Shown in pieces: positions 5,585-32,714 of a stretch of DNA of 33,596 nt. Source of the DNA: Loktanella sp. (GTDB lineage Bacteria > Pseudomonadota > Alphaproteobacteria > Rhodobacterales > Rhodobacteraceae); NCBI GenBank assembly GCA_024686085.1, contig JAIBDT010000030.1:1-33596 (forward strand), read 5' to 3'. Position 1 is the first letter of the stretch; every line of letters starts with the position of its first letter. A program made the translations under genes and the position numbers. Under the pieces are notes generated by a model that saw only the letters and a program-made list of their open reading frames with translations, did not search any database and was not told where the DNA came from.

Positions 5585-5598
5585 TTGACTTTGATCAA
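5585..5598. promoter_or_regulatory. FNR/FixK box 1 (TTGACTTTGATCAA)
   Basis: Matches TTGAY-N4-RTCAA in full. It ends 80 bases before the GTG of the DUF2267 gene, a distance that suits an activator site near -41 with a short leader. It probably controls DUF2267 and the following host-attachment-family gene. Confidence 0.75.
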
Positions 5599-5678
5599 TG
5601 GCGCGCGGGGCATTGTGTCGTAGCGTTCTCCGGCGGCTCTTGCCAAAGGCATACCCGCCTAAAAAAGGAGAGAATACG

Positions 5679-6110
5679 GTGTCAAAAAAAGGTTTAGAAG
5701 TCTTCGACCGCACAGTGCAAGAAAGCCACGAGTGGGTGAACGAGCTTGCGGAGAGGCTTGATTGGGCGAGCCACCGTGACGCCTTGCGCATGATGCGTAG
5801 CGTCCTGCATCTGATCAGGGATCATCTGCCAAATGATGAATCGGCGCAATTCTCAGCCCAACTCCCGATCCTCATCAGAGGCATGTATTTTGAAGGCTGG
5901 CAGCCGAAAAACACGCCGATCAAGGCGCGTCGCGCGGACCAGTTCATCGCGACCATTGAGGGTGAGGTCGGCAATGTTCTGGATTACCGTGGCCCAGAGG
6001 ACATCACGGCGGTGTTTAAGCTTATTAATGCGCGGATATCGCGTGGAGAAGTCGCCGACGTCCGCGCTAACCTTTCGGTCGAACTCCAAAACCTATGGCC
6101 TGCGCCTTGA
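5679..6110 (+). CDS. DUF2267 protein
   Basis: Small helical protein of the DUF2267 family (about 143 residues), of unknown biochemical role and often found in stress or low-oxygen gene sets of alphaproteobacteria. Family-like features are the pattern VNELAERLDWASHRDALRMMRSVLHLIRDHLP, then QLPILIRGMYFEGW, and a C-terminal FKLINARISRGEVADVRANL segment. The start is the GTG at 5679, preceded at ideal distance by AAAAAAGGAG; the frame is open upstream to 5598, but that part has no ribosome binding site and overlaps the FNR box. The host-attachment-family gene starts 63 bases downstream on the same strand, so the two are probably one unit under box 1. Confidence 0.85.
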   Translation: MSKKGLEVFDRTVQESHEWVNELAERLDWASHRDALRMMRSVLHLIRDHLPNDESAQFSAQLPILIRGMYFEGWQPKNTPIKARRADQFIATIEGEVGNVLDYRGPEDITAVFKLINARISRGEVADVRANLSVELQNLWPAP

Positions 6111-6173
6111 TTAACGCTGGGCGCACCCGGTTTTTCGCGATACTTTTTTGAACTCGAACCTTGGAGAAAACCC

Positions 6174-6611
6174 ATGAAAGCCTTAAGAACTTGGGTCCTG
6201 TTAGCAGATGCACGGCGTGCTCATGTGATGTCCTATGACATCCCCAGCAAGCGGCTCGTCCCAGTGGAAGGGGCGGAATGGACCGCCGAACCACCAGCGG
6301 AATATTCCGACGAGGCGGGCGTTATGCCGTCTCGAACTGGCTCAGGTCGTGCCTCGATATCCCGTCCGGATCCAGCGCTGCAGGCGGAGGTGTCCTTTGC
6401 AAAATACCTTGTTAGTCAATTGAATGCGGCCCGCACCAAGGCGCGGTTTGACAAATTGATCGTTGTCGCCGCCCCACATATGCTTGGCGTGTTGCGCGCG
6501 CACATGACCCCAGAACTTCAAGCCCTTATAGGCGCAGAACTGGACAAGGATCTTACGCAAAGTGATCACGACAAGCTGATGCGGTCGCTTGCAGATGTCT
6601 TTCCGGTTTAA
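6174..6611 (+). CDS. Host-attachment-family protein (baeRF/eRF1-like fold)
   Basis: A 145-residue protein of the 'required for attachment to host cells' family, which is related to the central domain of archaeal/eukaryotic release factors (baeRF group). Visible hallmarks are TWVLLADARRAHVMSYD at the N-terminus, the central FAKYLVSQLNAARTKARFDKLIVVAAPHMLGVLR, and ELDKDLTQSDHDKLMRSLADVFP at the C-terminus. ADARRA and DLTQ are the usual signature positions. The family name comes from one plant-associated bacterium; the biochemical role is unknown. GGAG precedes the ATG (CTTGGAGAAAACCC). It lies 63 bases behind the DUF2267 gene, probably under the same FNR box. Confidence 0.85.
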   Translation: MKALRTWVLLADARRAHVMSYDIPSKRLVPVEGAEWTAEPPAEYSDEAGVMPSRTGSGRASISRPDPALQAEVSFAKYLVSQLNAARTKARFDKLIVVAAPHMLGVLRAHMTPELQALIGAELDKDLTQSDHDKLMRSLADVFPV

Positions 6612-6665
6612 GGTAAAAGCCGCCGGTGTGGGAGCAGCGCGTTTTTGGACAAAATTTGTGAGAAG

Positions 6666-6679
6666 TTGATTTGGATCGC
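6666..6679. promoter_or_regulatory. Decayed FNR-like box in front of the DUF302 remnant
   Basis: TTGATTTGGATCGC keeps the full left half-site TTGAT and the first three bases of the right half (ATC), but the final AA has become GC. It ends 35 bases before the ATG of the DUF302 remnant. I read it as a site that has decayed along with its gene; it could also be chance. Confidence 0.35.
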
Positions 6680-6714
6680 TGCCGCACACGCGCTCAAACC
6701 CCAAGGACATCACA

Positions 6715-6912
6715 ATGACTTGCCCGATCAACCGCGTTTTCGACGGGGCCACGACGATGAAAACGATGTTGGGTGTGACGGTGCCGGTAACCCGGAAAAT
6801 GGGCTATTAGGCCATCGGGTTGGAACCCGTGCGTTGTGGCATGTTACCGTGCAACGTGATCATGCGTGCGGTTGCGGGTGGCGTCGAGGTCAGTGCCGTT
6901 GCCGCGATGTAG
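6715..6912 (+). pseudogene. DUF302-family gene remnant
   Basis: The frame starting at the ATG at 6715 (after CCAAGGACATCACA) encodes a DUF302-like N-terminus, CPINRVFDG, then jumps to a segment resembling the middle of the family (TMKTMLGVTVPVTRKMGY). It meets an in-frame TAG at 6808-6810 and resumes in the same frame with AIGLEP, then MLPCNVIMRAVAGGVEVSAV, the characteristic DUF302 C-terminal motif (family form LPCNVVVR), ending at TAG 6910-6912. The total is 65 codons against about 130 in intact members. The gene has therefore lost internal segments in frame and gained a stop. Function is almost certainly lost. Confidence 0.65.
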
Positions 6913-6922
6913 GGATGTCTCG

Positions 6923-8773
6923 TCACACCGCCGGATCAAGGGGCGCTATGCGCAAGGCCCGCAGCGCGTTGATGATGACTGCCACATCAATGACCTCCTG
7001 AAACAACGCGCCCTGCACAGGCGTGAGGTAGCCAAAAGCCGCCGCGATCATGCCCGCAACTGATAGGCCGATCCCAACCACCACGCTTTGAACGGCGATG
7101 CGTCTAGATCCTTTTGCGATCTCCATTCCCATGACAAACCGATCAATTTGGTCCACGAGCAGGACAACATCGGCGGCTTCGGCGGAGGCGGCTGCACCCC
7201 GCGCGCCCATCGCGACGCCAACATCAGCAGCGGCAAGCGCGGGCGCATCATTTACACCGTCGCCCACCATCATAACAGGGCCGTTTTTGCGCTCGCTCAA
7301 AACGAGCAACACCTTTTGGTCGGGGGTTAATTTTGGGTGAATGGCATCCAGACCCAGACCCTTTGTCACCTGCTCTGCTACGATGGCCCTGTCGCCCGTT
7401 GCCAAAAGAATACGCGCGATCCCACCATTGCGCAGCCGCGCGAGCATTGCGCTTGTCCCGTCGCGCAACTGGTCAGCCATGACAATCCGCCCGACAATTT
7501 GCCGGTCAACTGCCAAGGCGACAACGACCGAACCGGCGGCGAGAGCGGGATGATCACCCGAGGCCTGCCCGAGATGCCGCATGACGAAATCTTCCCCGCC
7601 GACGACAACCTCGCGACCCTCAACATGCCCGACGACCCCTTCACCTGCAATCTCCGAGACACCTGACGGCACAGGGAGATCAAGGTCGCGCGCCTTGGCT
7701 GCTGCGACAACGGCCTGCGCGACGGGGTGTTTTGAGGTTTGATCAAGTGCTGCGGCAAAGCGCAAGACATCCGCCTCGGACATGCCATTATCTGTGTCGA
7801 TTGCGACAATTTGCGGGCGTCCATCGGTCAAGGTGCCCGTTTTGTCGAGGATCAGCGTGTTAATTTTGGCCATGCTTTCGAGCGGCCCTGCGCCCTTAAC
7901 GAGCACGCCGTAATGCGCAGCGCGTGACAGGCCCGCGACCAAGGCAACAGGCACCGCCAAAATAAGAGGGCAGGGCGTCGCCACAACCAACACCGCGACG
8001 GCACGGATCGGATCACCTGTGAACCACCAGGCGGCAAGTGCGATGGCGACAGTAACGGCGAGGAACCCGAGGGACCAGCGGTCAGCCAGTCGCGCCATTG
8101 GTGCTTTGGAACGTTGCGCCGCAGCGACCAGCCGCACAATGCCCGCATAGGTGCTTTCCTCGGCGCGCCGCGTCGCCAAGAGATTGAACGGCTCGCCCGC
8201 GTTGGTGGCCCCGCTCATGGCCTCTGCGCCGCGTGACAAATGCGCGGGCATAGATTCACCGGTTAGCGCGGAGGTGTCGATATAGGCAAGCTCAGAGTCC
8301 ACAATACCGTCCACAGGCACCACATCGCCCTGCCGTATCAGCAGCAGATCGCCTGGCTGGATGCTTTCAAGCGGCACCTCCTCAATGCTGCTATTGTGGT
8401 AGCGGCTTGCGGTTCTTGGGGCGCGCAACAGCAGCGCGTGCATCTCGCGTTTTGCGCGACCTTCGGCGAAGCCTTCGAGAAATGTGCCCCCGGAATACAT
8501 GACCGCTACAACGGCGGCAGCGAGCGTCTCGCCGAATGCCAAAGCGGCAGTCATCGAGAGGGCGGCCACGATATCAAGCCCGAATTCACCTCGCAAAAGG
8601 CTACGCACGATTTCGGTGATGAGGGCAAGCAGAACAGGAATGACGCCGATCAACCAAACGGTCTTATACAGATCGCTGCTGCCTGAGAAATAAAGCCCCA
8701 GACCCACCATCAGACCGACAAACGCTACGGACAAAAGCGTCATATTCAGTCGTTCACTGTTGATCTGTTCCAC
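6923..8773 (-). CDS. P1B-type heavy-metal-translocating ATPase without N-terminal metal-binding domain
   Basis: Integral membrane ATPase that exports a transition metal. Visible motifs in order: N-terminal membrane helices beginning about residue 10; TGES actuator motif (STALTGESMPAHLS); the membrane metal-site motif TPCPLILAVP at about residue 263 in place of the common CPC; phosphorylation site DKTGTLTDG at about 308; HP motif (SKHPVAQAV); MVGDGVNDAPALAAADVG near 505; and final membrane helices. There is no N-terminal HMA domain or His-rich tail. A TPC motif is known from a P1B subgroup linked to Ni/Fe export, but the metal cannot be fixed from this alone. It lies divergent to the unknown gene at 8982, with FNR box 2 between them, 119 bases from its start. 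Confidence 0.92.
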   Translation of the reverse strand: MEQINSERLNMTLLSVAFVGLMVGLGLYFSGSSDLYKTVWLIGVIPVLLALITEIVRSLLRGEFGLDIVAALSMTAALAFGETLAAAVVAVMYSGGTFLEGFAEGRAKREMHALLLRAPRTASRYHNSSIEEVPLESIQPGDLLLIRQGDVVPVDGIVDSELAYIDTSALTGESMPAHLSRGAEAMSGATNAGEPFNLLATRRAEESTYAGIVRLVAAAQRSKAPMARLADRWSLGFLAVTVAIALAAWWFTGDPIRAVAVLVVATPCPLILAVPVALVAGLSRAAHYGVLVKGAGPLESMAKINTLILDKTGTLTDGRPQIVAIDTDNGMSEADVLRFAAALDQTSKHPVAQAVVAAAKARDLDLPVPSGVSEIAGEGVVGHVEGREVVVGGEDFVMRHLGQASGDHPALAAGSVVVALAVDRQIVGRIVMADQLRDGTSAMLARLRNGGIARILLATGDRAIVAEQVTKGLGLDAIHPKLTPDQKVLLVLSERKNGPVMMVGDGVNDAPALAAADVGVAMGARGAAASAEAADVVLLVDQIDRFVMGMEIAKGSRRIAVQSVVVGIGLSVAGMIAAAFGYLTPVQGALFQEVIDVAVIINALRALRIAPLDPAV

Positions 8774-8892
8774 GTGATTGTTCCCTCAAAAAAGCATAAG
8801 GTCGCCATTTCACCGGAAAAACTGGCGGCTCTCTCACTATTGCGCTTTCAATGCTTGCCGTCGAGAAAGTAGTGCTGCGCGGGCCCGCAAAC

Positions 8893-8906
8893 TTGAGAAA
8901 AATCAA
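8893..8906. promoter_or_regulatory. FNR/FixK box 2 (TTGAGAAAAATCAA)
   Basis: One mismatch to TTGAY-N4-RTCAA (G at position 5). It lies between the divergent P1B ATPase gene and the unknown gene at 8982, 75 bases from the latter start and 119 from the former. The spacing favours control of the plus-strand gene, but the ATPase may also respond. Confidence 0.6.
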
Positions 8907-8981: not shown

Positions 8982-9461
8982 ATGCAAAAATTTCATGAAG
9001 ACTTCGAGTCGTTTTGGGACAGGGTTTGTGAACCACAGACAGGTCTGGTTCTCGATTTGGAGATCGTTGATCTGGGCAAGCATGACGGAATAAAAGTGGC
9101 TCTTTATGTTGATCAACCGGACCGTCTTGTCTTTGAAGTTATCCTCGTCGATCCGGAATCCAGACAACTCCTGACGGATGGTAGCATTGAGACCGAAACC
9201 TTTTGGAAATGCATCCGCACGTACGTCAAAAAAGAAGCGATCACACAGCTTTTTCTAACGGCGCGTTGCAATTCAAGTCCGATGCTAAATGCCGTTTCGG
9301 CGAGGTGCATTGGCTATGCCGAGATGCGCAATGTGAGGTTCCTTCGCTTGGTCGAAGACATCTTGGATGAGGTCGCAACGCAGGAACCGGCCCTGTCGGT
9401 CGATGTTGTTGTTACATACCGAAATCCAGACAATGATCACTTTGTGAATTACATTTTTTAA
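8982..9461 (+). CDS. Unknown protein, 159 residues
   Basis: I do not recognise this protein. It is soluble-looking, acidic and mixed alpha/beta, with no signal peptide or membrane segment. Noticeable parts are the start FHEDFESFWDRVCEP, an aromatic TFWKCIRTYVKKEAITQLFLTARC block, and the end of VDVVVTYRNPDNDHFVNYIF. Three cysteines are scattered rather than in CxxC pairs. The start is the ATG at 8982 with GGAG eight bases ahead; the frame continues upstream to 8937 without support. It sits 75 bases behind FNR box 2, which puts it in the low-oxygen-type gene set of this window, and it is followed by a 411-base gap. Confidence 0.75.
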   Translation: MQKFHEDFESFWDRVCEPQTGLVLDLEIVDLGKHDGIKVALYVDQPDRLVFEVILVDPESRQLLTDGSIETETFWKCIRTYVKKEAITQLFLTARCNSSPMLNAVSARCIGYAEMRNVRFLRLVEDILDEVATQEPALSVDVVVTYRNPDNDHFVNYIF

Positions 9462-9603: not shown

Positions 9604-9617
9604 TTGACACTTGTCAA
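9604..9617. promoter_or_regulatory. FNR/FixK box 3 (TTGACACTTGTCAA)
   Basis: Perfect, symmetric match to TTGAC-N4-GTCAA. It is 112 bases before the candidate small ORF at 9730 and 255 bases before the LuxR-type regulator, with nothing else downstream, so it either drives a small transcript or ties the curli-region regulator to the FNR/FixK regulon through a long leader. Confidence 0.65.
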
Positions 9618-12382: not shown

Positions 12383-12410
12383 CTAATTACAGGGGGCACA
12401 CCGCATCGCC

Positions 12411-14479: not shown

Positions 14480-15208
14480 TCACATTTGGGTTGGTTTTTT
14501 CAGCTGTTTCACATCGCTGCGGATCGCGCGATAGACTCTGCTGCCCCATTCTGCATAAATCTTTGGACCGGGGTGAAAGCCGTCAGGGCTCATCCGCGAG
14601 ACATCAGGCTCAAAATCAACACCGACGTAGCGGCAGCCAGCGCGGCTTGTCACGAGCTTGCGCAACGCAAGATCAAACCTGTGCGCCTGCGCGCCCACTA
14701 CCCATCGAAGAGGTTGGGGCAGTAATGGAAAATATTGCATTTTGGGAATACCCGAGACGCAGATGACGTCGGCCTCAAACTTGAACGCGATGAGATCAAG
14801 TAGTGTCGCATAGCGGCGCCGCCAAACCCAAAGTGGCACAAGTCCGGTGATATCGTTGACCCCAAGCGAAACCGAAACAACATCAAACTTCTGGTGTTGG
14901 CTGTCTTGGAGTCGCGCGATCGTATCCGCAGTTGTGGCGCCGGTCTTTGCATCCACGGACCAATAGACGGTGTTGGTCTGAGACAATCTCTTGCGCATAT
15001 GGCCCAGCAACGCTTCTTCCTGATGTGAGGTGCCGACACCCATGGCGGAACTGTCACCGACGATCATTAAGCGCAGCGCAGGACCTTGCCCGCTTACGCC
15101 GTTCCTGCGGCCAACCGGATCATCCAAGCGCAACGCCGAGCGCCGCACTTTCACGACCTGAAAGACCAGGATGGGAAAAAATATGATGCGCGCAGCAAAG
15201 TCTATCAT
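14480..15208 (-). CDS. SGNH/GDSL-family hydrolase (esterase/lipase-like)
   Basis: A 242-residue serine hydrolase. The catalytic blocks are readable: GDSSAMGVG (nucleophile Ser near residue 50), a Gly region (TGATTADTI), LGVNDITG (oxyanion Asn near 118), and DGFHPGP (Asp/His pair near 210). The N-terminus MIDFAARIIFFPILVFQVVKV is one hydrophobic segment, so the protein is probably membrane-anchored or exported. I use the ATG at 15208 because GGAGG lies five bases upstream; the frame extends 22 residues further without a ribosome binding site. Members act on acyl or acetyl esters of lipids, polysaccharides or peptidoglycan; the substrate here is unknown. It stands alone upstream of the curli block, with no FNR box. 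Confidence 0.85.
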   Translation of the reverse strand: MIDFAARIIFFPILVFQVVKVRRSALRLDDPVGRRNGVSGQGPALRLMIVGDSSAMGVGTSHQEEALLGHMRKRLSQTNTVYWSVDAKTGATTADTIARLQDSQHQKFDVVSVSLGVNDITGLVPLWVWRRRYATLLDLIAFKFEADVICVSGIPKMQYFPLLPQPLRWVVGAQAHRFDLALRKLVTSRAGCRYVGVDFEPDVSRMSPDGFHPGPKIYAEWGSRVYRAIRSDVKQLKKPTQM

Positions 15209-15621
15209 CGCAACCTCCAGAAACAAGCACGCGACTGTCACGGCTGAAAAGGGTGCATGATTCCTGCATTTCATGGGCTTTCATCATCTGCTCCTTTCAC
15301 GTCGAAAGTAGTCGGTTGATCTGTTTGTAGATGTAATCGTTGCGCACAGAATTGACGATGATCAAGGTTTCTCGCAAAATTATCCCGTGAGCGGAAGACA
15401 TAGCTAGGGCTTAGCCATCATCACGTCAAAGCCACTCGTTTAAACATAGACCACACAGGCGTTGTTGATGCGTGACGAATTAGGTCTATCAGTCGCGGCG
15501 AACGGTTGAGCTGCGCCGCGGACCAAGTCAGTGAGATTGTGAACCGCGTGTGGATTTGCGTCTTGATCGGCTACATTTCCAACGCGACTTCCCACTGATT
15601 CATCTGAGGAAGAAGAGTCGA
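15209..15621. other. Intergenic region without recognised gene
   Basis: About 413 bases between divergent genes. There is no ORF of note, no FNR box and no clear hairpin terminator. Promoters for the SGNH hydrolase and for the small thioredoxin-like gene should lie here, but I cannot place them. Confidence 0.35.
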
Positions 15622-15933: not shown

Positions 15934-15947
15934 TTGATCTTGGTCAA
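15934..15947. promoter_or_regulatory. FNR/FixK box 4 (TTGATCTTGGTCAA)
   Basis: Perfect TTGAY-N4-RTCAA match ending 62 bases before the ATG of the bactofilin-like membrane gene, the typical distance for a Class II activator site. Confidence 0.75.
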
Positions 15948-17188: not shown

Positions 17189-17434
17189 TTAAGCGGCATA
17201 GGTTTTTAGATATCCGAGCATATCATCAAAACTGCGCATCTGGTCATAGTCCGCTTCGGGCATTGGACAGGAAAGCTCGCGACCGAGGGCAGTAATCAGC
17301 TTCAAAAAATCCATCGAATCAATATCACATTCATCGCGCAAATCGGCGGTCGTATTGATCGTGGCAATGTCGATTTCCGGCGCGATGCCGCCCAAATGTT
17401 TGATCAGGATTTCGCGCAGGTCAGATTGTGTCAT
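17189..17434 (-). CDS. Acyl carrier protein
   Basis: An 81-residue carrier protein with the phosphopantetheine site in ECDIDSMDFLKLI (Ser near residue 40; the common form is DSL). It is acidic with the expected four-helix pattern. It is the last gene of the five-gene operon, and its ATG overlaps the E2 stop by four bases. A dedicated carrier next to a 2-oxoacid-dehydrogenase-type E1/E2 pair suggests that the acyl group may be passed to a protein-bound pantetheine instead of, or besides, CoA; that is inference. It is clearly different in sequence from housekeeping AcpP (no DSLD.VEL). Confidence 0.88.
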   Translation of the reverse strand: MTQSDLREILIKHLGGIAPEIDIATINTTADLRDECDIDSMDFLKLITALGRELSCPMPEADYDQMRSFDDMLGYLKTYAA

Positions 17435-22366: not shown

Positions 22367-23133
22367 TGTGCCACATATCCGCCATCAACCGGAATAATTG
22401 CGCCCGTGACAAAGGATGCGCGCGGCGAGCAAAGCCATACGATCAGATCGGCCACTTCTTGCGGCTTGCCGATCCGGCCAATCGGGTGCAACGGGTCCAT
22501 CATTTGGGCGCTGCTCTGCGTGCCGCCAGTGGCCTGATCTGCAAGTGAATCAAGCATCCGCGTATCTATGCCCCCGGGGCAGACCGCATTCACGCGGATG
22601 CCGGATTTGCCGTATTCCAGCGCCGCGTTTTTGGTCAGGCCCGCCACGCCATGTTTTGAGGCCACATAGGGCGCAAGCCCCGAAAAGCCGATGAGGCCCG
22701 CGACCGAAGACAGGTTCACAATCGTGCCGCCGCCGGATTTCAGCATCGCCGCAATCTCGGCTTTCATGCACAGGAATGTCCCCTTCAGGTTGACCGAAAT
22801 GATCGCATCAAAGTTATCGTCCGTCTGATCAGCAAAGGGGATGATCTTGCCTTCAATCCCCGCGTTGTTCACCGCACAGTCGATTTTGCCATAGGTTGCC
22901 ACGGCCATATCAATCAGGGCCGCAACATCGGCAGGCTTCGAGACATCGGCCGTCACCAGCGTCGCAGTGCCCCCTGCCTTTTCGATCATATTCACGGTCT
23001 CGGCGGCGCCATTGCTATCGATGTCAGAGACCACAACTTGCGCACCCTCTGAGGCAAAGCAAAGCGCCGTTGCGCGACCAATTCCCGCACCCGCGCCCGT
23101 AATAATAACAGTCAGTTCATCAACGAGTCCCAC
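22363..23133 (-). CDS. Short-chain dehydrogenase/reductase
   Basis: A 256-residue NAD(P)-dependent oxidoreductase. It has the coenzyme motif [10 protein letters not shown], the NNAG motif, catalytic Ser/Tyr/Lys in [11 protein letters not shown] and YVASKHG, and the typical end [16 protein letters not shown]. The start is the GTG at 23133, with GGAAGGA seven bases upstream; a farther ATG at 23157 has no ribosome binding site and would add eight residues. It is the first gene of a five-gene operon (SDR, acyl-CoA synthetase, E1, E2, ACP) in which every junction is a four-base start-stop overlap. The substrate is unknown. An acetoacetyl/3-hydroxyacyl or acetoin-type reaction would fit the neighbours, but the sequence alone does not show it. 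Confidence 0.9.
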
Positions 23134-23201
23134 TGTGACATCCTTCCATTTGTCCAAAGAAAAGTCTTAACGAAAGCGTATCGCGAGGCCCGTGCGTCCG
23201 A

Positions 23202-23215
23202 TTGACGAATATCAA
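23202..23215. promoter_or_regulatory. FNR/FixK box 5 (TTGACGAATATCAA)
   Basis: Perfect consensus match in the 130-base divergent gap. It is 68 bases from the SDR GTG (minus strand) and 48 bases from the ATG at 23264 (plus strand), so it may serve both the five-gene operon and the unknown gene. Confidence 0.78.
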
Positions 23216-23263: not shown

Positions 23264-23770
23264 ATGCAGATCAATTCATTTCCGAAATACGACATCAGCG
23301 AAAATACCACGGGATGCTGCCCGCGTTTCCAACCTGAAGGGTGGGACAATCAACATCTTCATTTCAAAGATAAGATGTTTGTGCGCGCCACGACGCGCAG
23401 CGCGATGCATGTGCCGTGGAACATGGGCCGTGTGTTTTCCCGCGTTCAAAACCATATCGAAGACGCAGACGCAGCCGATCCAACGACAGAGATTGTGCTA
23501 AGCCACGACATATCACCTTGGGAAGGCGAACATTTTTTTGCGGTCAACAAGGACGTACCCGACGAGGAGATGACGCGGCTCTCAGGTGATTTTATCACTC
23601 GTGTTTTTGAAGGGGGATATCGTCGGGCCAAAGATTTTGACCACGATATGCGTGTGGCCGCGACCGCTGCGGGCAAGACGGCCAAGGACGTCTTCTTTTT
23701 CTATACGACATGTCCAAAATGCGCCAAAGTATACGGTGAGAATTATATCGTCGGTGTTGCAAGCGTGTAG
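23264..23770 (+). CDS. Conserved-looking cysteine-motif protein of unknown function
   Basis: A 168-residue cytoplasmic protein that I recognise only as a widespread uncharacterised type. The N-terminal part has TTGCCPRFQPEGWDNQHLHFKD and MFVRATTRSAMHVPWNMGRVFSRV. The C-terminal part has FFFYTTCPKCAKVYGENYIVGVASV with a CxxC pair, and several His residues lie between. A CC-P plus CPKC arrangement suggests bound metal or a redox site. GGGAG precedes the ATG. FNR box 5 ends 48 bases upstream, and the gene is divergent from the SDR/E1/E2 operon, so it is probably co-induced with it. Confidence 0.78.
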   Translation: MQINSFPKYDISENTTGCCPRFQPEGWDNQHLHFKDKMFVRATTRSAMHVPWNMGRVFSRVQNHIEDADAADPTTEIVLSHDISPWEGEHFFAVNKDVPDEEMTRLSGDFITRVFEGGYRRAKDFDHDMRVAATAAGKTAKDVFFFYTTCPKCAKVYGENYIVGVASV

Positions 23771-23840: not shown

Positions 23841-24725
23841 CTAATGCGCAGCTTTTTTTGCTGCGTAAAATTCGGCACATTTCGCCTCTTGCCCTCGCAC
23901 GACGCGTTTGCCGTCAAGCGGACCGCCATGTTCGGTGACAACCGTGACTTGCCCTTCAGGCTGTGAGGCACGTTCAAAGTAAATGACGACCCAGTCGCGG
24001 GTTTTGCCAAAGCGATGGGCGCTTGGGCTGTTTGAAAAAAGCGCGGTGAACTGCCAATCGGCACGGTCGGTGTGCAGGATCGGCAATCGCGTGTCACCGG
24101 TGGGATTGAACCTGCGTGGTTTTATCGTCGGCAGCTGGTCTGCATGTGCACGGTAAGCCGCATCAATTGCAAGGATATCGGCAATGTCCGGCTGCTGACG
24201 GTCCTGTGCGGTGTTCCGCGGCCGTCGACGACGTGCCAACATGTCTGACAGGGAATGCCGCAAACTTTCCACACGACGCGGCCCGATACCTTTGATGGCC
24301 TCAAGGCTTCCGTCATGCGCAGCAGATTCCAATGCTTCCAGCGTTTCAATACCAAGGACTTCATGAATTTCGCGGGCCAGCGCGGGGCCAATCATCGGCA
24401 CCGTTTGAAACACTTTTTCAGGGTCGGCCGCACCGCGTAACCGATCAAGAAGCCCTGATGAACCTGTATCGAAAATTTCCGCGATTGCTGCTGCGATAGA
24501 AGGGCCAATAGTCGGTAGGTCATCCAGTCCGCGCTTGCCACCTTTTTCATAATCCAATCGGACTGGGTGCGGCAATTCGCGAACATATTCGGCTGCATCT
24601 TGATAAGCACGCACCCGAAAAGGAGACGCTGCTTGTTGCTCCAAAAGGTCTGCAATCTCAGAAAGCTTGTCCGCGACAAAACGGTTTTCAGACGAATCTT
24701 TCGTCGGGTGTTTTTGCTGCGCCAT
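23841..24725 (-). CDS. Helix-hairpin-helix DNA-binding protein related to the N-terminal part of family X polymerases
   Basis: A 294-residue protein. Residues 10-160 resemble the 8-kDa and helix-hairpin-helix region of PolX/Pol-beta: SENRFVADKLSEIADLLEQQAASPFRVRAYQDAAEYVREL, then two helix-hairpin-helix units (LDDLPTIGPSIAAAIAEIF; FQTVPMIGPALAREIHEVLG) and a third in LEAIKGIGPRRVESLR. The palm with the catalytic Asp triad and the PHP phosphatase domain of bacterial PolX are both absent. The C-terminal part (LPILHTDRADWQFTALFSNSPSAHRF onward) is a separate unknown domain. It probably binds damaged or nicked DNA. GGAG precedes the ATG and FNR box 6 lies 57 bases upstream. Confidence 0.8.
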   Translation of the reverse strand: MAQQKHPTKDSSENRFVADKLSEIADLLEQQAASPFRVRAYQDAAEYVRELPHPVRLDYEKGGKRGLDDLPTIGPSIAAAIAEIFDTGSSGLLDRLRGAADPEKVFQTVPMIGPALAREIHEVLGIETLEALESAAHDGSLEAIKGIGPRRVESLRHSLSDMLARRRRPRNTAQDRQQPDIADILAIDAAYRAHADQLPTIKPRRFNPTGDTRLPILHTDRADWQFTALFSNSPSAHRFGKTRDWVVIYFERASQPEGQVTVVTEHGGPLDGKRVVRGQEAKCAEFYAAKKAAH

Positions 24726-24782: not shown

Positions 24783-24796
24783 TTGATCGCGGTCAA
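24783..24796. promoter_or_regulatory. FNR/FixK box 6 (TTGATCGCGGTCAA)
   Basis: Perfect consensus match lying 57 bases upstream of the helix-hairpin-helix gene and just after the end of the next operon. It therefore belongs to the helix-hairpin-helix gene. Confidence 0.78.
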
Positions 24797-24811: not shown

Positions 24812-25060
24812 TCACTCGTCAGCGAGAAGCGTGTCCCACGCCCCGGGGCAAAGTCTTTCGATTTCGTCCCTCGACATCGGCGCGCCTTCGGGTCCGAATG
24901 CCTCAAGGATTGCGCCTTGCCGTATCAAGATGGCGACAGGGCTTTTGTATCCGAAAACAGTGAGAGCCTTTTTTGTATTATTTGCCGCAACCCTGATGCG
25001 CGTCAGTGCGACGACCTTGATAGGCCCGATCTGCTGCGGAGGATCAAATGAAAGGGTCAT
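24812..25060 (-). CDS. Unknown 82-residue protein, third gene of the GerW operon
   Basis: I do not recognise it. It begins MTLSFDPPQQIGPIKVVALTRIRVAANN and has a second part AILIRQGAILEAFGPEGAPMSRDEIERLCPGAW. It is small, with no signal peptide or membrane helix. Its ATG overlaps the end of the DUF2953 gene by four bases, so it is the last gene of a GerW-DUF2953-unknown transcription unit. Confidence 0.65.
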   Translation of the reverse strand: MTLSFDPPQQIGPIKVVALTRIRVAANNTKKALTVFGYKSPVAILIRQGAILEAFGPEGAPMSRDEIERLCPGAWDTLLADE

Positions 25061-25626
25061 CCGGCAGGGCCAAATGCATGCCAGCCGAACCGCATGATAG
25101 GGATCAAAAATGCGGCGAGTGTGACCTGAATACCTGCGGTAAGCGTGCCCCTAAGGCCGGATTGTGTAAAGTCGGGCCGAAGATTTAGCGAAACCTTGTG
25201 GGGCAGGGGGCGTGCATATTGCAGCAGCATCAACAGTCCCGAAAGTTGCCCTGTATCAGCGGGGTCGTTCAGGCCAAAGTCGGCATCAACGACAAGTTCG
25301 GACAGATGGATATGGTCGAAAATATCTGCAATCAGTCTTGGCAGGGCGCTGCCAGCCGATCCACGAAACGGCGATACTCTTGATTTTCCGTGCTTTTTTG
25401 GCGATTTCTTTTTCGCCTTGCGCGCGGATTTTTGCTTCCGATGCGGGCCTTGCACCAAAGTGATCGACGGGGCAAGCCCACCTGCCACCCGAACGTCGAG
25501 GCGGTAGGCGAGCTGTGGGGTATTGGCAAGATGCAGGCGAAACCTCATCGGTGTGATCAGTAACACAACCAAAAACACCAACACCGCACAAAGCGCCCAG
25601 AATATGATCGCGAACAAGAGCGACAT
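25057..25626 (-). CDS. DUF2953 membrane protein (YtfI-like)
   Basis: A 189-residue protein with one N-terminal membrane helix (MSLLFAIIFWALCAVLVFLVVLLITPMRF), a basic low-complexity segment (KQKSARKAKKKSPKKHGKS, about 75-95), and a C-terminal half with the DUF2953-type pattern (VDADFGLNDPADTGQLSGLL; SLNLRPDFTQSGLRGTLTAGIQVTLAAFLIP). In Bacillus, ytfI (DUF2953) and ytfJ (GerW family) are neighbours. The same pair occurs here: the GerW gene lies six bases upstream. The function is unknown; I infer a membrane partner of the GerW-family protein. Confidence 0.75.
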   Translation of the reverse strand: MSLLFAIIFWALCAVLVFLVVLLITPMRFRLHLANTPQLAYRLDVRVAGGLAPSITLVQGPHRKQKSARKAKKKSPKKHGKSRVSPFRGSAGSALPRLIADIFDHIHLSELVVDADFGLNDPADTGQLSGLLMLLQYARPLPHKVSLNLRPDFTQSGLRGTLTAGIQVTLAAFLIPIMRFGWHAFGPAG

Positions 25627-25632
25627 TTTGGG

Positions 25633-25986
25633 TTAAACGTCGACCTTGTTTTTCAAAACGGCCATTTTGTCCACGGCGGCGGATGCCGTTTCGGCGATGA
25701 TCTCGGTCATGTTCGTCAGCGTTCCCTTGATCGATTCAACGCGGGCGCCGTCCTTGTCAAAAATGATTGCACCCAGCGGTTTAATCCCGCCACCTGCACC
25801 CGTTCCAGCCGAGTTGCCGGACTTCTGCGCGACATTGCCGCCTGCGCCAAACCCAAAGCCATAACTGACTATAGGTATCACGGTGGCACCATCACGCTCG
25901 ATCGGATCGCCGAGGACATTCTTTGCATTTAGTAGCCGGTCCAGTTCCTCTACAGTGCCCTTGAGTAGTTTTTCAACATCTTCCAT
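25633..25986 (-). CDS. GerW/YtfJ-family protein
   Basis: A 117-residue protein of the GerW (sporulation protein YtfJ) family: VEKLLKGTVEELDRLLNAKNVLGDPIERDGATVIPIVSYGFGFGAGG, then the Gly-rich middle and GGGIKPLGAIIFDKDG. The family occurs widely outside spore-formers; this organism type does not sporulate, so the name says little about the role. AGGAGA precedes the ATG. It is the first gene of a three-gene unit with DUF2953 and the 82-residue unknown, 61 bases behind FNR box 7. The C-terminal helix (TNMTEIIAETASAAVDKM) is typical of the family. Confidence 0.85.
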   Translation of the reverse strand: MEDVEKLLKGTVEELDRLLNAKNVLGDPIERDGATVIPIVSYGFGFGAGGNVAQKSGNSAGTGAGGGIKPLGAIIFDKDGARVESIKGTLTNMTEIIAETASAAVDKMAVLKNKVDV

Positions 25987-26047: not shown

Positions 26048-26061
26048 TTGACAGGGGTCAA
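26048..26061. promoter_or_regulatory. FNR/FixK box 7 (TTGACAGGGGTCAA)
   Basis: Perfect consensus match ending 61 bases upstream of the GerW-family start on the minus strand. The CFA-synthase gene ends 37 bases farther on, so the box can only drive the GerW operon. Confidence 0.78.
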
Positions 26062-26098: not shown

Positions 26099-27331
26099 CT
26101 ATTCTGCGGCCTTAGAGAGCTGCGTTAGCTGCATTTTATTGTAAAGGTAGTCGCGGGTCAGCGGCACAGCATCTTGAGCTCGCGATAATTGAAATTGGAA
26201 AACCACTTGCTTGCCGAAGCGAAATGTTTGTTCCGAGGCCACGAGATAGAACCGCCACATTCGGACAAACCGATCATCATATATCGCCGCAGCTTTGTCG
26301 CTATTGGATTGAAACCGGTCAAACCAATGCCGGAGAGTTGTGGCGTAGTGCAAGCGCCAAACCTCCACGTCGTCGAGCCAAAGATCCGCGTTCTCGATTA
26401 CCGGTAAAACCTCGGACATTGACGGAACATATCCACCCGGGAAAATGTACTTTGATATCCACGGATTTGTTGCAGCAGGAGGCGCGCAGCGCCCGATAGT
26501 GTGGATCAGCGCCACGCCGTCGGGTGTCAAGAGATCGCGCACTTTTTTAAAGTAGGTATCGTAGTGCGGCTCGCCCACGTGCTCAAACATCCCGATTGAA
26601 ACGACTCTGTCGAAGGGGCCGCTTACATCGCGATAATCGCACAGGCGAAATTCGACCTGATCGGAAAGCCCTGCGGCGCGCGCACGCGCCGTCGCAACAT
26701 TAAGTTGTTCCTGCGAGAGCGTAATCCCAAGGACCTGAACCCCGTATTCGCGGGCCAAGCTAAGGGCCATTCCGCCCCATCCGCATCCAATATCCAAGAC
26801 ACGCTGCCCGGGTTGAAGCAATAGCTTGGCTGCGATGTGAGACTTTTTGTAGATCTGCGCCTCTTCCAATGTGCTATCGGGAAACGCGAAATACGCACAG
26901 GAATATTGCCGATCCTCATCTAGAAACAGGTCGTATAGTTCACCGGACAAGTCGTAGTGGTGTGCAACATTGCGGCGGGCGATAGAAACAATATTATTCT
27001 GGTCGAACCGCTGCCGCGCACCGCGAATCAACTTTCGTCCCTGCGCCCACCAATCCAGTGATTGATCAGTGTAGTTGCGCACCACAATCTCAAGCAAACC
27101 GTGCAGGTTGTCGTCACGAATCGTAATTTCGCCGTTGGTGTAGCCTTCTCCAAGTGCGAGCTCGGGATTCAACACAAGGCGACGGATGATCCTTCGGTTG
27201 GTCAGGCGCACAATGACTTTCTGACCCCTGCCATCGCCCAGACTGACGAACTGGTGGTCGGGTAAGTGCAGTATCAGGTTACCTTCGCGTATAAGACGCC
27301 TTAAATTTTTGATAAGTATGAATTGAAACAA
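26099..27331 (-). CDS. cfa: Cyclopropane-fatty-acyl-phospholipid synthase
   Basis: A 410-residue SAM-dependent methyltransferase that adds a methylene bridge to unsaturated acyl chains of membrane phospholipids. It shows the CFA N-domain, the SAM motif VLDIGCGWGGMALSLA (about 177), the family motif YSCAYF (about 145), GITLSQEQ, FDRVVSIGMFEHVG, and the ending EVWRLHYATTLRHWFDRF. The start is the TTG at 27331, with GAGGA seven bases upstream and no better ATG nearby. FNR box 8 lies 53 bases upstream, which ties cyclopropane ring formation to the low-oxygen-type regulon. The annotation by family is secure; exact product chemistry (plain cyclopropane or another methylation) is not shown. Confidence 0.93.
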   Translation of the reverse strand: MFQFILIKNLRRLIREGNLILHLPDHQFVSLGDGRGQKVIVRLTNRRIIRRLVLNPELALGEGYTNGEITIRDDNLHGLLEIVVRNYTDQSLDWWAQGRKLIRGARQRFDQNNIVSIARRNVAHHYDLSGELYDLFLDEDRQYSCAYFAFPDSTLEEAQIYKKSHIAAKLLLQPGQRVLDIGCGWGGMALSLAREYGVQVLGITLSQEQLNVATARARAAGLSDQVEFRLCDYRDVSGPFDRVVSIGMFEHVGEPHYDTYFKKVRDLLTPDGVALIHTIGRCAPPAATNPWISKYIFPGGYVPSMSEVLPVIENADLWLDDVEVWRLHYATTLRHWFDRFQSNSDKAAAIYDDRFVRMWRFYLVASEQTFRFGKQVVFQFQLSRAQDAVPLTRDYLYNKMQLTQLSKAAE

Positions 27332-27384: not shown

Positions 27385-27398
27385 TTGACAAGCGTCAA
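27385..27398. promoter_or_regulatory. FNR/FixK box 8 (TTGACAAGCGTCAA)
   Basis: Perfect consensus match 53 bases before the CFA-synthase TTG. It lies 207 bases before the plus-strand small gene at 27606, which is less likely to be its target. Confidence 0.78.
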
Positions 27399-27942: not shown

Positions 27943-28168
27943 GGCAAGCGGCCCATTATGCGCGGGCTACGCTCTGCGACATCTTGTTATCGCATCAATA
28001 TTGGCCCATTAGCCGCCTCACAAAAATGACACTAATCATTCGACATGCTTCGGTTTTTCTTTACTAATTTTCACAAGGGCGATGTTCTCGATGCGCAGCT
28101 AGCGCAAAACAGCCGTCGCCTTGTACAAAAACCGCAATCGAAGCCTTCGGGCAGAAATTTGGGACCAC

Positions 28169-31100
28169 ATGGCGCGAACGACACCAAAAACCGTCGCAAC
28201 GACCAAAGCAACGGCAAAGACTGAAGTTACGATTCCTATTGTCGGGATAGGTGCCTCTGCAGGGGGCCTTCAAGCCTTTAGCGACTTCTTTGATGCCGCA
28301 CCAATTTCATCTGGTGTCGGCTATGTTTTGGTTCATCATGTTGATCCCGACCACAAAAGCCTCATGGCGGATTTATTAGCCAAACACACGACCATGCCTG
28401 TGGTGCTTGCCGTAGATCAGTTGCGGGTTAAGGCGGATCATGTGTATGTTATCCCGCCTAAAAAATATTTGGAAATCAAGGGCGGCGTCTTGCACCTCAC
28501 GGAACCGACGGAGCGCCGTGGTGCACGGCTGCCGATAGATTTGTTTTTTAAATCGTTGGCCAAGGATCTGGGCCAGAACGCAGTCGCGGTCATCCTGTCG
28601 GGATCCGGAAGCGATGGGGCAGCATCCATTCGCGAGATCAAAGAACAGGGCGGCATCGTGTTGGTGCAAGACCCTATTGAGGCGCAACATGATGGGATGC
28701 CGCGCAGCGCAATCGCGACCGGAGCCGTCGATCACGTTGTCTCTGTCCCTCAGATGCCGGAAATTATCACCAACTACATCCGTCATCCGTTCATTCAAAG
28801 TGGCGGTGAGCAAAAAGAGACTGTGGGGAATGCCAAGGGGGTTTTGGACCAAATCATCGCCGTATTGAAAAAGCATTCACCGATCAATTTCGAGCTCTAT
28901 AAAGATGGTACAATGTTGCGCCGGATTGAGCGGCGGATGGCGCTCAAGCACATGGAGAACCCAAGTGACTATCTTGCGCTCTTACGGGATTCGCGCGAGG
29001 AGGCGCAAAATCTCTGCGCGGATCTATTGATTAGTGTCACTTCGTTTTTCAGAGACCCAGACGCGTTCGAGTACCTTGATAAGTCATTCCTTGGGGAGTT
29101 GGTGAAATCCCATGACAAAAAACAGCCAATCCGCATATGGGTGCCAGGATGCGCGACGGGAGAGGAAGCCTATACACTTGCGATGCTGGTCATCGAGAAG
29201 ATATCGACGCTCGGAAAAGACGTAAAACTGCAAATTTTTGCATCGGATGTTGATGAGCGGGCTTTGAAGATTGCGCGCGAAGGCGTTTATCCAGATTCTA
29301 TCTCGGAAAATGTATCTGCCGCTCGGTTAAGACGGTTCTTTACCAAAGAAGATCACAGTTACCGCGTGACGCCCGAACTGCGCGACACGGTTGTCTTTGC
29401 CCAGCAGAACATTCTAGCAGATGCGCCCTTTTCCAAACTTGATCTGGTTTCGTGCCGCAATGTGCTGATCTATCTGACACCCAATGCGCAAGAGCGGGTT
29501 TTGCAGATGTTCCACTTTGCGCTGAATGACGGTGGCACATTATTCCTAGGCACGTCCGAGACAACCGGAAGTCACGACGAACTTTTCCTGCCGTTGTCTA
29601 AAAAGTATCGCATTTACAAACGTGTGGCCAACATTCGCAATCGCGCGTTTGATTTTCCGCTTGCGCAACGTCCTTTCGCGAATTCGTCTGATGTTGCATC
29701 ACGAAGCCAAGCTCAAATCACTGGTGACAGACTGGCCGAGCTGAGCCAAAGTCTTTTGGTCGCGCGCTATGCACCTGCGGCTGTGCTCATTAACGTCAAT
29801 TCAGAGACGCTTTATTTTGACGGCCCGACTGACAATTATCTTAGGGTGCCGTCGGGTGAATCAAGCCGCGATCTATTGGCGATGGCACGGGAGGGCCTTC
29901 GCACGCGCCTGAGAATCGCCATTAGAACGGCGCGCTCCGGTGCCGTGGACGTCAAAGAAAGTGCCACAATCACCCGCGGTAACGAAAAGGTTAATGTAAT
30001 AATCCAAGTGCATCCGGTGAAGCTGGATGAGGCCGAGATGTTTTTGGTCACCTTCGTTGACCAACCCGCGACGCGGCCCTCTTTGGACGTTGCCCCCCCC
30101 AACGGACATCTGGAACAAGAGCTTGAGGCGACGCGGGCTGACCTGCGCAACACAGTTCGCGACTACGAGCGTTCGACTGAAGAGCTAAAGGCCGTAAACG
30201 AAGAAGCCATGTCGATGAACGAAGAGTTCCAATCGACAAATGAAGAACTTGAGACATCCAAGGAAGAGCTGCAATCATTGAACGAGGAATTGACCACGCT
30301 CAATTCCCAACTTCAGCAAAAGATCGACGACGAACGCCGCGTATCGGACGATCTCAACAACTTGTTGGCAAGTTCGGGCATCGCAACGATATTTTTGGAC
30401 TCGAATCTCAAAATCATGCGCTTCACGCCCGCGACGCGGGAGCTCTTTAACCTCATCAGCAACGATATGGGTCGCTCCTTTAGCGACATCACTGGCAAGT
30501 TCAAGGATTCCGACCTGTTGGTAGACGCGAAAACCGTTCTTGAAACCTTGGCAACAACCGAGCGCGAAGTTGAGTCCACGGATGGGCGTTGGTTTATTCG
30601 CCGCGTGCTTCCTTACTGCACTCAGGATGGCAAGGTCGGCGGCGTTGTCGTCACGTTTGCCGACGTCACAAAACTCAAGGAGTTGCAGCGCCTGACCGCT
30701 GTAGCGCGCCAGTATGCCGAAAAAATCGTCGACACCTTGCGCGAACCTTTGCTTGTGCTTGACGGGGCGTTCAACATCATTTCGGTAAGCCAGTCTTTTC
30801 ATCGGGTGTTCGTCGCGGGTTCCGAACAACTCGTCGGTCAAAACCTGTTCACGATCCAGAATCGGCAATGGGATGAGCCAAAGCTTCGAGATCTGTTAGG
30901 GAATATTCTGCGCCAGAAGAAAGCGGTGGAATCCTTTGAGCTTACGCTCGACACCCCTAACGTTGGTCAAAGGGATATGGTTATGAACGCCCGCATGATT
31001 GAGGATGGACAGGACTTCATTCTTCTAGCATTGGAAGATGTGACCGAACAGAAAAAGGCGCACCAAGAAATCTTGAACCGTGAAGCCCGCCTAAGCGCCA

Positions 31101-32587
31101 TTCTCAATGCCGCCCCCGAGGCGATCGTGACAATCAACGAGGCCGGTATTATCGGTAGCTTCAGCACCGGAGCAGAGGAAATTCTGGGATTCAAAGCTGA
31201 CGAGGTCATCGGCCAAAATGTAAATATCTTGATGCCCGAACCTAATCACAGCGGTCATGATGGCTATCTTGAACATTACGTTAAGACCGGAGAGAAAAAG
31301 ATAATCGGGATGGGGCGCGAAATGGATGCGTGCCACAAAGACGGCACACGCGTGCCGATCCGGTTGACGGTGTCGGAAATGGTTCTGGACGGGACGCGCC
31401 ACTTTCTGGGAATTATGCATGACTTGACCACTGACAGAAAGCGGCAGGTAGAATTGCAACGCGCCCAAAAGATGGAGGCCGTCGGCCAACTGACCGGTGG
31501 TTTGGCACATGACTTTAACAACCTGCTGACAGTTGTCATCGGCAATCTCGAACTATTGGAAATGCGCACCGACGATCCAAAGCTGCTTGAGTTGATGCAT
31601 GGGGCGCTGGAGGCCTCGAATATCGGCGCCGCGCTCACAAGTCAGTTGTTGTCCTTTTCGAAAAGTCAGGCCCTCGAGCCCGAAAATGTTGCTTTGAATG
31701 ACTTGGTCAAAACCATGCTTTCAATTCTTGAGCGCACGCTTGATGACCAGATCGTCGTTGAAACGCGGCTTGGCGACGATCTTGCCGAAACGCTTGCAGA
31801 TCCAGGACAGGTCGAAAGCGCGATCCTCAATCTCGCGATCAACGCGCGCAACGCGATGCCGAACGGCGGAACTCTGACCATTGAGACCCGTAACGTTACG
31901 CTTGATGCCGACTTTGCGGCCACTCAGGTTGATGTCACTCCGGGGGATTACGTCTGCCTTGCGATGACCGATACGGGCGTAGGGATAGATCCGGAAATTC
32001 AGGCCCGTGTCTTCGAGCCATTCTTTACCACAAAAGGGCCGGGGGCCGGATCGGGACTGGGGCTGAGCATGGTTTATGGCTTCGCCAAGCAATCGGGCGG
32101 ACATGTTTCGATTTACAGCGAGGCGGGGCAGGGGACCACCGTCAATCTCTTCCTTCCCAAAGCCGCCTCAAAGAAAAAAGACCAAAAAAATGAGCGGTTG
32201 GAACAACCCACTCAGGCGTCGGGTGAAACGATCCTTGTGGTCGAAGATGATCCAAAAGTCCTACGACTTACGGTGACGCGCCTTAAGCAGTTAAACTATC
32301 AGGTTATTGCCGCCACTAACGGCCCCGAAGCAATAAAAATCCTGACAGAAAATAAGAAAATCGACTTGGTGCTGTCTGATGTCGTGATGCCCGGCGGCAT
32401 GTCGGGTTTCGACGTCGCAGCCAAGGCCATGGCCCTTAGACCCGATTTGAAAATCATTTTATCCACAGGCTATGCCAAGGGGATCGAGCCGCACGACGCG
32501 ACATCTGGCATGGTCAAGCACAAAGTCTTGCGAAAACCCTATGGATTACAGGAATTGGCGCGCTCCCTTCGGGAGTTACTGGACTAA
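28169..32587 (+). CDS. CheB-CheR-PAS-histidine kinase-receiver hybrid with a FixL-like heme PAS
   Basis: A 1472-residue multi-domain sensor. In order: CheB methylesterase-like domain (about 20-210; [14 protein letters not shown] with the catalytic Ser and HHVDPDHKS with the His); CheR methyltransferase (about 225-485; [18 protein letters not shown] loop, [11 protein letters not shown]); long coiled coil (about 670-725; [30 protein letters not shown]); three PAS domains (about 730-840, 850-965, 970-1090); HisKA with [11 protein letters not shown] (phospho-His near 1113); HATPase with [10 protein letters not shown] and [20 protein letters not shown]; and a C-terminal receiver ([11 protein letters not shown], Asp near 1402). 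The third PAS carries the FixL heme-pocket His and Arg (His1030 and Arg1050, spaced 20 as in FixL). I use the ATG at 28169 rather than the TTG at 28121. No partner response regulator is adjacent. Confidence 0.9.
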
Positions 32588-32700
32588 GATTCTTTGTAAT
32601 TTCTGACATCGGCAGCGCACAAAAAGCCGATTCCGCGCTCTACTTTCGTCAAGGTCCCCACGCGGGTTTTTGCGCAACGATGCTGCTTGGTCTTGACCAC

Positions 32701-32714
32701 TTGATAAAAATCAA
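32701..32714. promoter_or_regulatory. FNR/FixK box 9 (TTGATAAAAATCAA)
   Basis: Perfect TTGAT-N4-ATCAA. It lies 64 bases before the small membrane ORF at 32779, the same spacing as other boxes in this window, and nothing larger lies between it and the IS element. Confidence 0.75.

Follow-up and report, generated by a model that had tools for sequence, protein, structure and literature searches.

Oxygen cascades described in related systems

A cascade consisting of the haem-PAS hybrid kinase hFixL, the OmpR-type response regulator FxkR and the activator FixK has been described in Rhizobium leguminosarum/johnstonii 3841 (pRL9) and R. etli (p42f). At 1% oxygen, hFixL signals through FxkR, which binds the K-box GTTACA-N4-GTTACA and induces fixK, according to the excerpted report (PMC7888657). 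The stretch analysed here, termed the window, is the entire contig C82 (33,596 bases) of a Loktanella sp. assembly of 2,993,401 bases in 109 contigs, and probably encodes, on a contig containing repABC genes, an hFixL-FxkR-FixK-type microoxia cascade and its regulon. A haem-PAS hybrid kinase, an OmpR-type regulator gene divergent from the fixK gene, an intervening K-box, a FixK without iron-sulfur (Fe-S) cysteines and anaeroboxes before the targets are common to the window and to the Rhizobium system as it appears in that excerpt. The window differs in that its FixK-like protein comes from another clade, its type of K-box has mostly GATACA half sites, and it belongs to Rhodobacterales rather than Rhizobiaceae. 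It further differs in having stress, envelope and metabolic genes with no recognised cbb3 oxidase, and a second sensor that is fused to CheB-CheR.

The FixLJ-FixK systems of Sinorhizobium, Bradyrhizobium and Caulobacter share the order of haem-PAS kinase, regulator, FixK and anaeroboxes. FixJ is a NarL-type regulator, whereas the regulator encoded at 34-804 of the window is of the OmpR type and its predicted site is K-box-like; a plain FixLJ-FixK system was ruled out by the OmpR-type Trans_reg_C domain of 34-804. The FnrL/Dnr network of Dinoroseobacter shibae has the box family and the bacterial group in common with the window, but its FnrL detects oxygen with an Fe-S cluster of its own, unlike the FixK-like protein 955-1626 (extract of PMC5398030). 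The term FixK is absent from the main text of that paper. Hybrid kinases with CheB/CheR fusions carry CheB and CheR before the PAS and kinase domains, as does 28121-32587, whose last PAS, in contrast, is a FixL-type haem domain and whose C-terminal 610 amino acids align with hFixL.

In the excerpted part of a survey of 50 genomes, only FnrN was reported in Rhodobacterales, and the origin of hFixL-FxkR-FixKf was placed in the ancestor of Rhizobiaceae (PMC4999443). The present data come from a wider genome set and fit neither statement. No description of the cascade in Rhodobacterales was found among the matching titles and abstract openings, full texts and subscription journals being outside the scope. 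The components and their logic are thus known ones, and the differences lie in the bacterial group, in the clade of the FixK protein, in a dense regulon located on a repABC contig and in the fusion of CheB-CheR to hFixL.

The FxkR-type regulator and the K-box-like repeat

The predicted relay, encoded at 34-804, shows 48% identity to Rhizobium FxkR9 over 233 amino acids. The corresponding figure is 30-36% for seven further regulators of the OmpR type in this genome; ten such matches were available, and three of them were left out of the comparison. FxkR9, the window regulator and 12 others formed a clade of 14 rows with a support of 99/97 against 20 other rows, which include 16 of the nearest other regulator family; the outgroups are nearer than those of the first tree. 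A sister family of OmpR-type regulators (41-45% identity to 34-804), common in Rhodobacteraceae, lies outside the FxkR clade. Synteny was studied in 80 loci, the best 80 of at least 523 confirmed relatives of the FixK-like regulator, with flanks of up to 10 kb. In 66 of these loci the FixK-like gene and an ortholog of 34-804 are transcribed divergently, in the same order as fxkR9/fixK9b on pRL9.

A scan for the published K-box identified the repeat GATACA-ATTT-ATTACA-CTTC-GATACC at 866-891, between the two regulatory genes. Among the 66 relatives, 51 contain a K-box with at most two mismatches at -80 to -104 (0.28 expected from shuffles) and 16 contain one with at most one mismatch; control scans of the reverse strand and with other spacers gave 0 and 0-4, respectively. 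Another sample comprised 29 loci, some of which may be shared with the first; 27 had the divergent regulator, and a K-box was present in 23 of these 27. On these counts, the direct repeat upstream of the FixK-like gene can firmly be regarded as real, and its equivalence to the rhizobial K-box is likely.

The FixK-like activator

A FixK/FNR-type regulator at 955-1626 had been proposed in the original prediction, and the Pfam domains together with the closest solved structure (FixK2, 4i2o, E 3.7e-31) confirm a FixK-type member of the Crp/Fnr family. The protein scores 141 bits (FixK) and 114 bits (FnrL), below the NCBIfam equivalog cut-off of 300. Its first 80 residues contain C11 as the only cysteine, and direct Fe-S sensing was ruled out because an N-terminal cysteine cluster is absent. 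A separate FnrL with N-terminal cysteines is encoded on contig C63 of the same genome. The recognition helix E-T-V/I-S/C-R is present in all 66 FixK-like proteins linked to the response regulator. An H-x-D-C motif occurs in the sensor domain of 955-1626, of 60 of these 66 proteins and of 3 of the 14 proteins from other loci, and is a possible redox or metal switch.

Haem-PAS kinases

The last 610 amino acids of 28121-32587 match nearly all of hFixL9 (40% identity over 628 columns, E 3e-140) and have His, His and Arg at the positions of hFixL9 H196, H202 and R216, respectively. The best solved match of the haem PAS is FixL (8js5, E 1.1e-29), followed by DosP/YddU; the first 13 of 14 solved matches are FixL or DosP/YddU haem sensors. 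By its domains and residues the protein is assigned as a hybrid histidine kinase with a FixL-type haem PAS and a receiver. The CheB-CheR-hFixL survey, in which four candidates were scored per genome, gave one other full-length match among 120 family genomes (G036, 58%, at E<=1e-100), and genome G084 encodes both halves at contig ends. A locus on a chromosome-sized contig of G055 encodes (at 7950-9110 of the locus), behind a box, only the CheB-side residues 1-375, which are possibly a remnant.

A FixL-like kinase gene is convergent on the response regulator gene in 65 of the 66 relatives. At the H196 position, the best hFixL9 match of these 65 loci has His in 59 and another residue in 3, with 3 unalignable, and the R216 position is Arg in all 63 alignable loci. 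Two other kinases of the Loktanella genome are unalignable or different at the haem positions. The short canonical kinase expected next to 34-804 falls outside the window, which starts 33 bases past the stop of 34-804. Contig C50 ends inside a short kinase gene in the required orientation; the Tropicibacter oceani kinase is the closest to it (46%), as against 36% for the fused protein. It is likely that this truncated kinase is the counterpart of the convergent FixL-like kinase, and the kinase end of C50 is probably contiguous with the window at its left side. With a short kinase on C50 and a fused one in the window, two kinases could therefore feed 34-804.

Gene functions on C50 were assigned by eye from the sequences. 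They are of types met repeatedly in this regulon and include universal stress proteins, three neighbouring Hsp20 proteins and a fourth apart from them, DegP, GrpE, Lon and BON proteins, a giant protein resembling cyclic-glucan synthase, cytochromes c and a P-type ATPase. In G084, which belongs to another genus of the family, a single contig of 82.6 kb carries genes of both the window type and the C50 type, and 10 boxes lie in the first 60 kb of it. Its window-type genes encode the 5' part of CheB-CheR-hFixL, the helix-hairpin-helix (HHH) protein, the cyclopropane-fatty-acid (CFA) synthase, DUF2267 and the bactofilin-like protein. Because G084 joins both gene types, it supports, without proving, that C50 and the window belong together.

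FixK/FNR boxes in the window and the genome

The original prediction had listed nine sites of the form TTGAY-N4-RTCAA. All nine are present in the sequence, eight of them exact and the one at 8893 a one-mismatch TTGAG variant. An exact box at 15352 (TTGACGATGATCAA) had been overlooked, as had the FxkR-type regulator, the K-box, the haem-PAS hybrid FixL part and the box-rich contig C50, and the window contains nine exact boxes and one variant (Table 1). The genome contains 50 exact boxes in 2,993,401 bases (9 on C82, 7 on the 43,662 bases of C50 and 34 elsewhere), and the pattern read backwards occurs at three sites. Outside C82 and C50 there is one exact box per 86 kb. Relative to the other 34 sites, the window is enriched 23-fold (Poisson P 4e-10) and C50 14-fold (P 1e-6); with the genome-wide rate and a factor of 109 for the contigs, the value for the window is P 1e-6. 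The claim that such a density is implausible by chance was likewise upheld, with a mean of 0.22 and a maximum of 2 exact sites in 300 dinucleotide shuffles of the window, and 11 scrambled palindromes gave 0 or 1 match each in the window.

Open frames of at least 189 codons contain 19 of the 34 sites elsewhere and none of the nine exact window sites; one of the seven C50 sites lies inside a 263-codon frame, antisense to the start of the BON gene. Outside long frames, 15 boxes occur elsewhere in the genome and 15-16 on the window and C50. The genome-wide density of 16.7 boxes per Mb is the highest of 61 family genomes (median 6.2, with the sizes of the other genomes rounded).

The distance from box end to a start codon on the side that could be activated is 44-80 nucleotides (nt) for nine of the ten boxes, the exception being 9604; 48-80 had been given earlier for eight. 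The boxes at 8893 and 23202 lie in divergent gaps, as proposed earlier. Nine different N4 cores were found among the ten boxes. Boxes 8893-8925 and 32701-32733 have the core AAAA in common and, by eye, a similar sequence behind it, and one promoter duplication is possible for this pair. Base preferences downstream of the boxes are only weak in 85 box-gene pairs; a common -10 element was tried and was unsupported by these pairs. Shuffles, scrambled patterns and conservation rule out that the boxes arose by chance or from base composition.

Table 1. Features of the window (distances in nt; ORF, open reading frame).
Feature	Position	Strand	Evidence or remark
FxkR-type OmpR-family response regulator, predicted relay	34..804	-	Response_reg + Trans_reg_C
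K-box-like repeat GATACA-N4-ATTACA-N4-GATACC	866..891	+	89 nt upstream of FixK-like start, between 34-804 and 955-1626
FixK-like Crp/Fnr activator (predicted)	955..1626	+	Pfam HTH_Crp_2/cNMP_binding
repABC replication/partition genes	1943..5471	-	RepC 1943-3031, RepB 3180-4175, RepA 4176-5471; NCBIfam RepABC_RepC, partition_RepB, partition_RepA above cut-off
FixK/FNR box, exact	5585..5598	+	80 nt before DUF2267 GTG start 5679
DUF2267 protein, candidate target	5679..6110	+	PF10025
Host_attach / baeRF family protein	6174..6611	+	Pfam; probably same operon as DUF2267
P1B-type heavy-metal ATPase	6923..8773	-	TIGR01525 above cut-off; box 8893 lies 119 nt upstream
Variant box TTGAGAAAAATCAA, divergent gap	8893..8906	+	1 mismatch; 75 nt to ATG 8982
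Protein of unknown family, possible target	8982..9461	+	No Pfam match above cut-off
Exact box without clear target	9604..9617	+	Nearest sizeable start rightward, a LuxR-like gene, 255 nt away
GDSL hydrolase, candidate target	14480..15274	-	PF13472
Exact box TTGACGATGATCAA	15352..15365	-	77 nt upstream of GDSL start 15274
Exact box	15934..15947	+	62 nt before bactofilin-like gene
Bactofilin-like membrane protein, candidate target	16010..17176	+	Name taken from the original prediction; no Pfam family
SDR - AcsA-type ligase - pyruvate-dehydrogenase-type E1 - E2 - ACP operon, candidate target	17189..23157	-	Domain matches
Exact box, divergent gap between SDR operon and hydrolase	23202..23215	+	44 nt to SDR, 48 nt to hydrolase
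Bact_hydrolase family protein, candidate target	23264..23770	+	PF20603
HHH PolX-like protein, candidate target	23841..24725	-	PF14716, PF14520
Exact box	24783..24796	-	57 nt before HHH gene
GerW - DUF2953 - small ORF operon, candidate target	24812..25986	-	PF09579, PF11167
Exact box	26048..26061	-	61 nt before GerW
CFA synthase family protein, possible target here	26099..27331	-	PF02353; box not conserved
Exact box	27385..27398	-	53 nt before CFA synthase
CheB-CheR-PAS-PAS-haemPAS-HisKA-HATPase-REC, hybrid FixL behind CheB/CheR	28121..32587	+	Pfam
Exact box	32701..32714	+	64 nt before 29-amino-acid ORF
29-amino-acid membrane-like ORF, possible target	32779..32868	+	Sequence, behind box 32701

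Conservation of candidate targets

The target most often linked to a box is the bactofilin-like gene, which is present in 37 of the 80 loci with 34 boxes 52-82 nt upstream. It occurs in 24 of 33 FixK-positive and 4 of 163 FixK-negative genomes of the order (P 1.7e-19), where presence means at least 39% identity (28 genomes), a cut set after the gap had been seen and excluding 12 genomes at 29-34%. An exact box lies within 200 nt of 18 of the 23 bactofilin-like loci in FixK-positive genomes other than this one; two distant homologs have no box. Genes for DUF2267 are found near the FixK-like gene in 34 of the 80 loci, and four boxes were counted in the 250 nt before them; Host_attach genes are found in 21, with 12 boxes at a distance of 48-58 nt. 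Other genes that recur near the regulator encode Hsp20, universal stress and CBS proteins and P-type ATPases.

The CFA synthase gene does not co-occur with the regulator (14/33 versus 57/163 genomes, P 0.43), and box position and co-occurrence leave it unsupported as a conserved target. Of 10 loci with the acsA-E1-E2-ACP operon, two have an exact box (at -90 and -88) and three a one-mismatch box at -69 to -104; acsA is the first gene in the operons of annotated relatives, and SDR precedes acsA in the window. As CFA does not track the regulator and the acsA box is only partly conserved, regulon membership varies by species. Annotated relatives of this ACP-linked, pyruvate-dehydrogenase-like operon with its acetate-CoA-ligase-type enzyme are present on plasmids of Methylocystis, Leisingera, Sinorhizobium and Burkholderia, and further matches to 17189-23157 that lack annotation were found in Azospirillum, Ciceribacter and Cupriavidus.

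No cco genes were recognised in the window, though boxes are present. CcoN is encoded in 5 of the 80 loci, with four boxes upstream, and also on pDSM110093_a. A plasmid of Sulfitobacter SK012 contains seven boxes in 41.7 kb. At 5836-12606 it has an operon for an F1F0 ATP synthase, with genes for GerW, the HHH protein and acetate kinase as well as acsA close by.

Distribution of the module

The 80 loci contain 155 exact boxes in 1,398,074 bp, or one per 9.0 kb, against 6.4 after shuffling and 0-21 for 11 scrambled patterns, and at least one exact box is present in 70 loci. The excess over 6.4 indicates that the regulator and the boxes travel together. FixK-like genes were detected in 33 of 196 genomes and 20 of 87 genera of the order (E<=1e-45), and an FxkR-type regulator with at least 50% identity in 13 of 120 genomes of the family, counting the present one. 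The distribution of the module is patchy. The nearest genus-named relatives of the regulator among the 80 loci belong to Yoonia.

The regulon had been called portable, a description that the data uphold only in part. Contigs longer than 500 kb carry at least 17 of the 80 loci, so the core is probably chromosomal in many species, and tblastn detected no repABC genes at distances of up to 10 kb from the regulator in any of the 80. The claim of a single replicon is unproven, as C82 is open at both ends. No near-identical plasmid was found in PLSDB by megablast of 5500-24000 (five weak matches). The module also occurs on plasmids of T. oceani (NZ_CP124618) and Sulfitobacter DSM 110093, which are the nearest plasmid carriers of the FixK-like regulator. 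The FxkR-FixK pair of T. oceani (39729-46143) likewise adjoins replication/partition genes.

Proposed cascade and alternative explanations

Low oxygen would be sensed by a haem-PAS hybrid kinase, which may be the short one of C50, the CheB-CheR-fused 28121-32587, or both, and the kinase would phosphorylate the FxkR-type response regulator 34-804. This regulator would bind the K-box-like repeat at 866-891 and turn on the FixK-like activator, which, having no Fe-S cluster, would bind TTGAY-N4-RTCAA anaeroboxes lying some 45-80 nt ahead of the starts of its targets. In the window this would activate genes of the stress response, of metal transport, of the envelope and of an alternative pyruvate/acyl metabolism, and on C50 the chaperone, protease, universal-stress and cyclic-glucan-synthase-like genes. 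The sequence itself shows the genes with their domains, the residues of the haem site, the K-box-like repeat, the boxes and the conservation of synteny, and from them we infer the oxygen signal, phosphotransfer, DNA binding, activation and the adjacency of C50 and the window.

Several observations weigh against this cascade. In an earlier tree, with other rows, the grouping with FxkR9 had a support of only 87/63. No K-box with at most two mismatches was found in 15 of the 66 relatives, and the site of the window itself has two. The relatives mostly carry GATACA-N4-GATACA, permuted consensi score in up to 45 of 66 because they overlap this repeat, and equating the repeat with the K-box of rhizobia depends on a single change in each half site. 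The FixK-like protein falls outside a grouping with the rhizobial FixK9a and FixK9b and FixKf of R. etli, in a tree with weak deep forks, and orthology of the last component of the cascade is therefore unsupported. The C50 kinase has Glu at the position of hFixL9 His202 and its receiver is cut off, and the FixK-like gene of G084 lies on a separate contig (C49). Exact boxes are lacking in 10 of the 80 loci. The bactofilin-like gene has no exact box in four of the five other genomes of the same genus, which account for four of the five boxless loci, and it keeps its box in three of four loci without a FixK-like gene at threshold. A CFA box at the same spacing was found in none of 29 CFA loci, six of which have a box at -111 to -174, and five of the ten acsA-operon loci have no box in range, two having a one-mismatch site at -163 and -292. 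The earlier claim of a low-oxygen regulon stands as to the dense FixK/FNR boxes accompanied by a FixK-type regulator on a repABC contig, but not every box is conserved, those of CFA and, within the genus, of the bactofilin-like gene being examples.

The boxes might mainly serve the chromosomal FnrL by direct Fe-S sensing, with the FixK-like gene as a minor or divergent partner. The FnrL encoded on C63 has the N-terminal cysteines, the box sequence is identical, and FnrL could bind the same boxes and drive some of them; the behaviour of the bactofilin-like box, kept in genomes without a FixK-like match and mostly absent from FixK-positive ones of the genus, points the same way. This explanation is nevertheless considered unlikely, since boxes cluster around the FixK-like gene over 80 loci, about half of the boxes of the genome outside long frames are on two contigs, and the bactofilin-like gene tracks the FixK-like gene. 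Even less probable is an input other than oxygen, such as redox, nitric oxide, light or stationary phase, acting through the HxDC motif or through a PAS ligand other than haem. Ligands of PAS domains are diverse, the C50 kinase differs where hFixL9 has His202 and the motif is frequent in the linked FixK-like proteins, whereas almost every kinase retains the haem His and Arg and almost all solved matches of the window PAS are haem sensors.

It is hardly credible that the boxes are so dense through a local accident, whether of composition or of promoter duplication, and lack regulatory meaning. Short palindromes can occur by chance, the composition of the gaps was tested only within the whole window, and boxes 8893 and 32701 may descend from one duplication. 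The shuffles and scrambled palindromes, the uniform spacing and the variety of N4 cores stand against such an accident, and the 34 boxes before bactofilin-like genes in other loci, counted from -52 to -82, show a conservation that already contradicts it.

Beyond the proposed hFixL-FxkR-FixK-type cascade itself, a wider interpretation is advanced tentatively, as possible rather than probable. The module may be a self-contained, transferable low-oxygen programme beside the chromosomal FnrL, with sensor, relay, K-box, activator and at least 16 target promoters on one replicon and with a second oxygen input through CheB-CheR-hFixL, in which the chemoreceptor-modifying enzymes CheB and CheR precede a complete hybrid FixL. 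The cascade may be old or widely shared in Alphaproteobacteria, rhizobia and roseobacters having plugged different FixK proteins into the same K-box.

Other genes of the window

IS3-like transposase genes at 32968-33596, read by eye from the ORFs, run past the right end of the contig and are a likely cause of the contig break. Curli-type genes are present at 12411-13898, where 12411-12872 encodes a CsgH-like protein and 12977-13423 a curlin-repeat protein (Pfam). The product of 13524-13898 is a repeat protein that resembles its curlin-repeat neighbour and has no Pfam match. A one-mismatch box is located in this region at 12891.

Biological meaning

The proposed system extends a cascade of nitrogen-fixing root symbionts to free-living marine Rhodobacterales. 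Likely functions and a testable wiring are provided for plasmid genes annotated as "helix-turn-helix domain-containing protein", "response regulator" or "PAS domain", and the roseobacter plasmid genes that respond to microoxia are predicted. If the wider interpretation is true, the CheB-CheR-hFixL fusion could couple chemotaxis adaptation to oxygen. The system would also help to account for plasmids that carry whole physiological programmes in roseobacters, and would make it testable how the oxygen cascade of rhizobia arose and was rewired.

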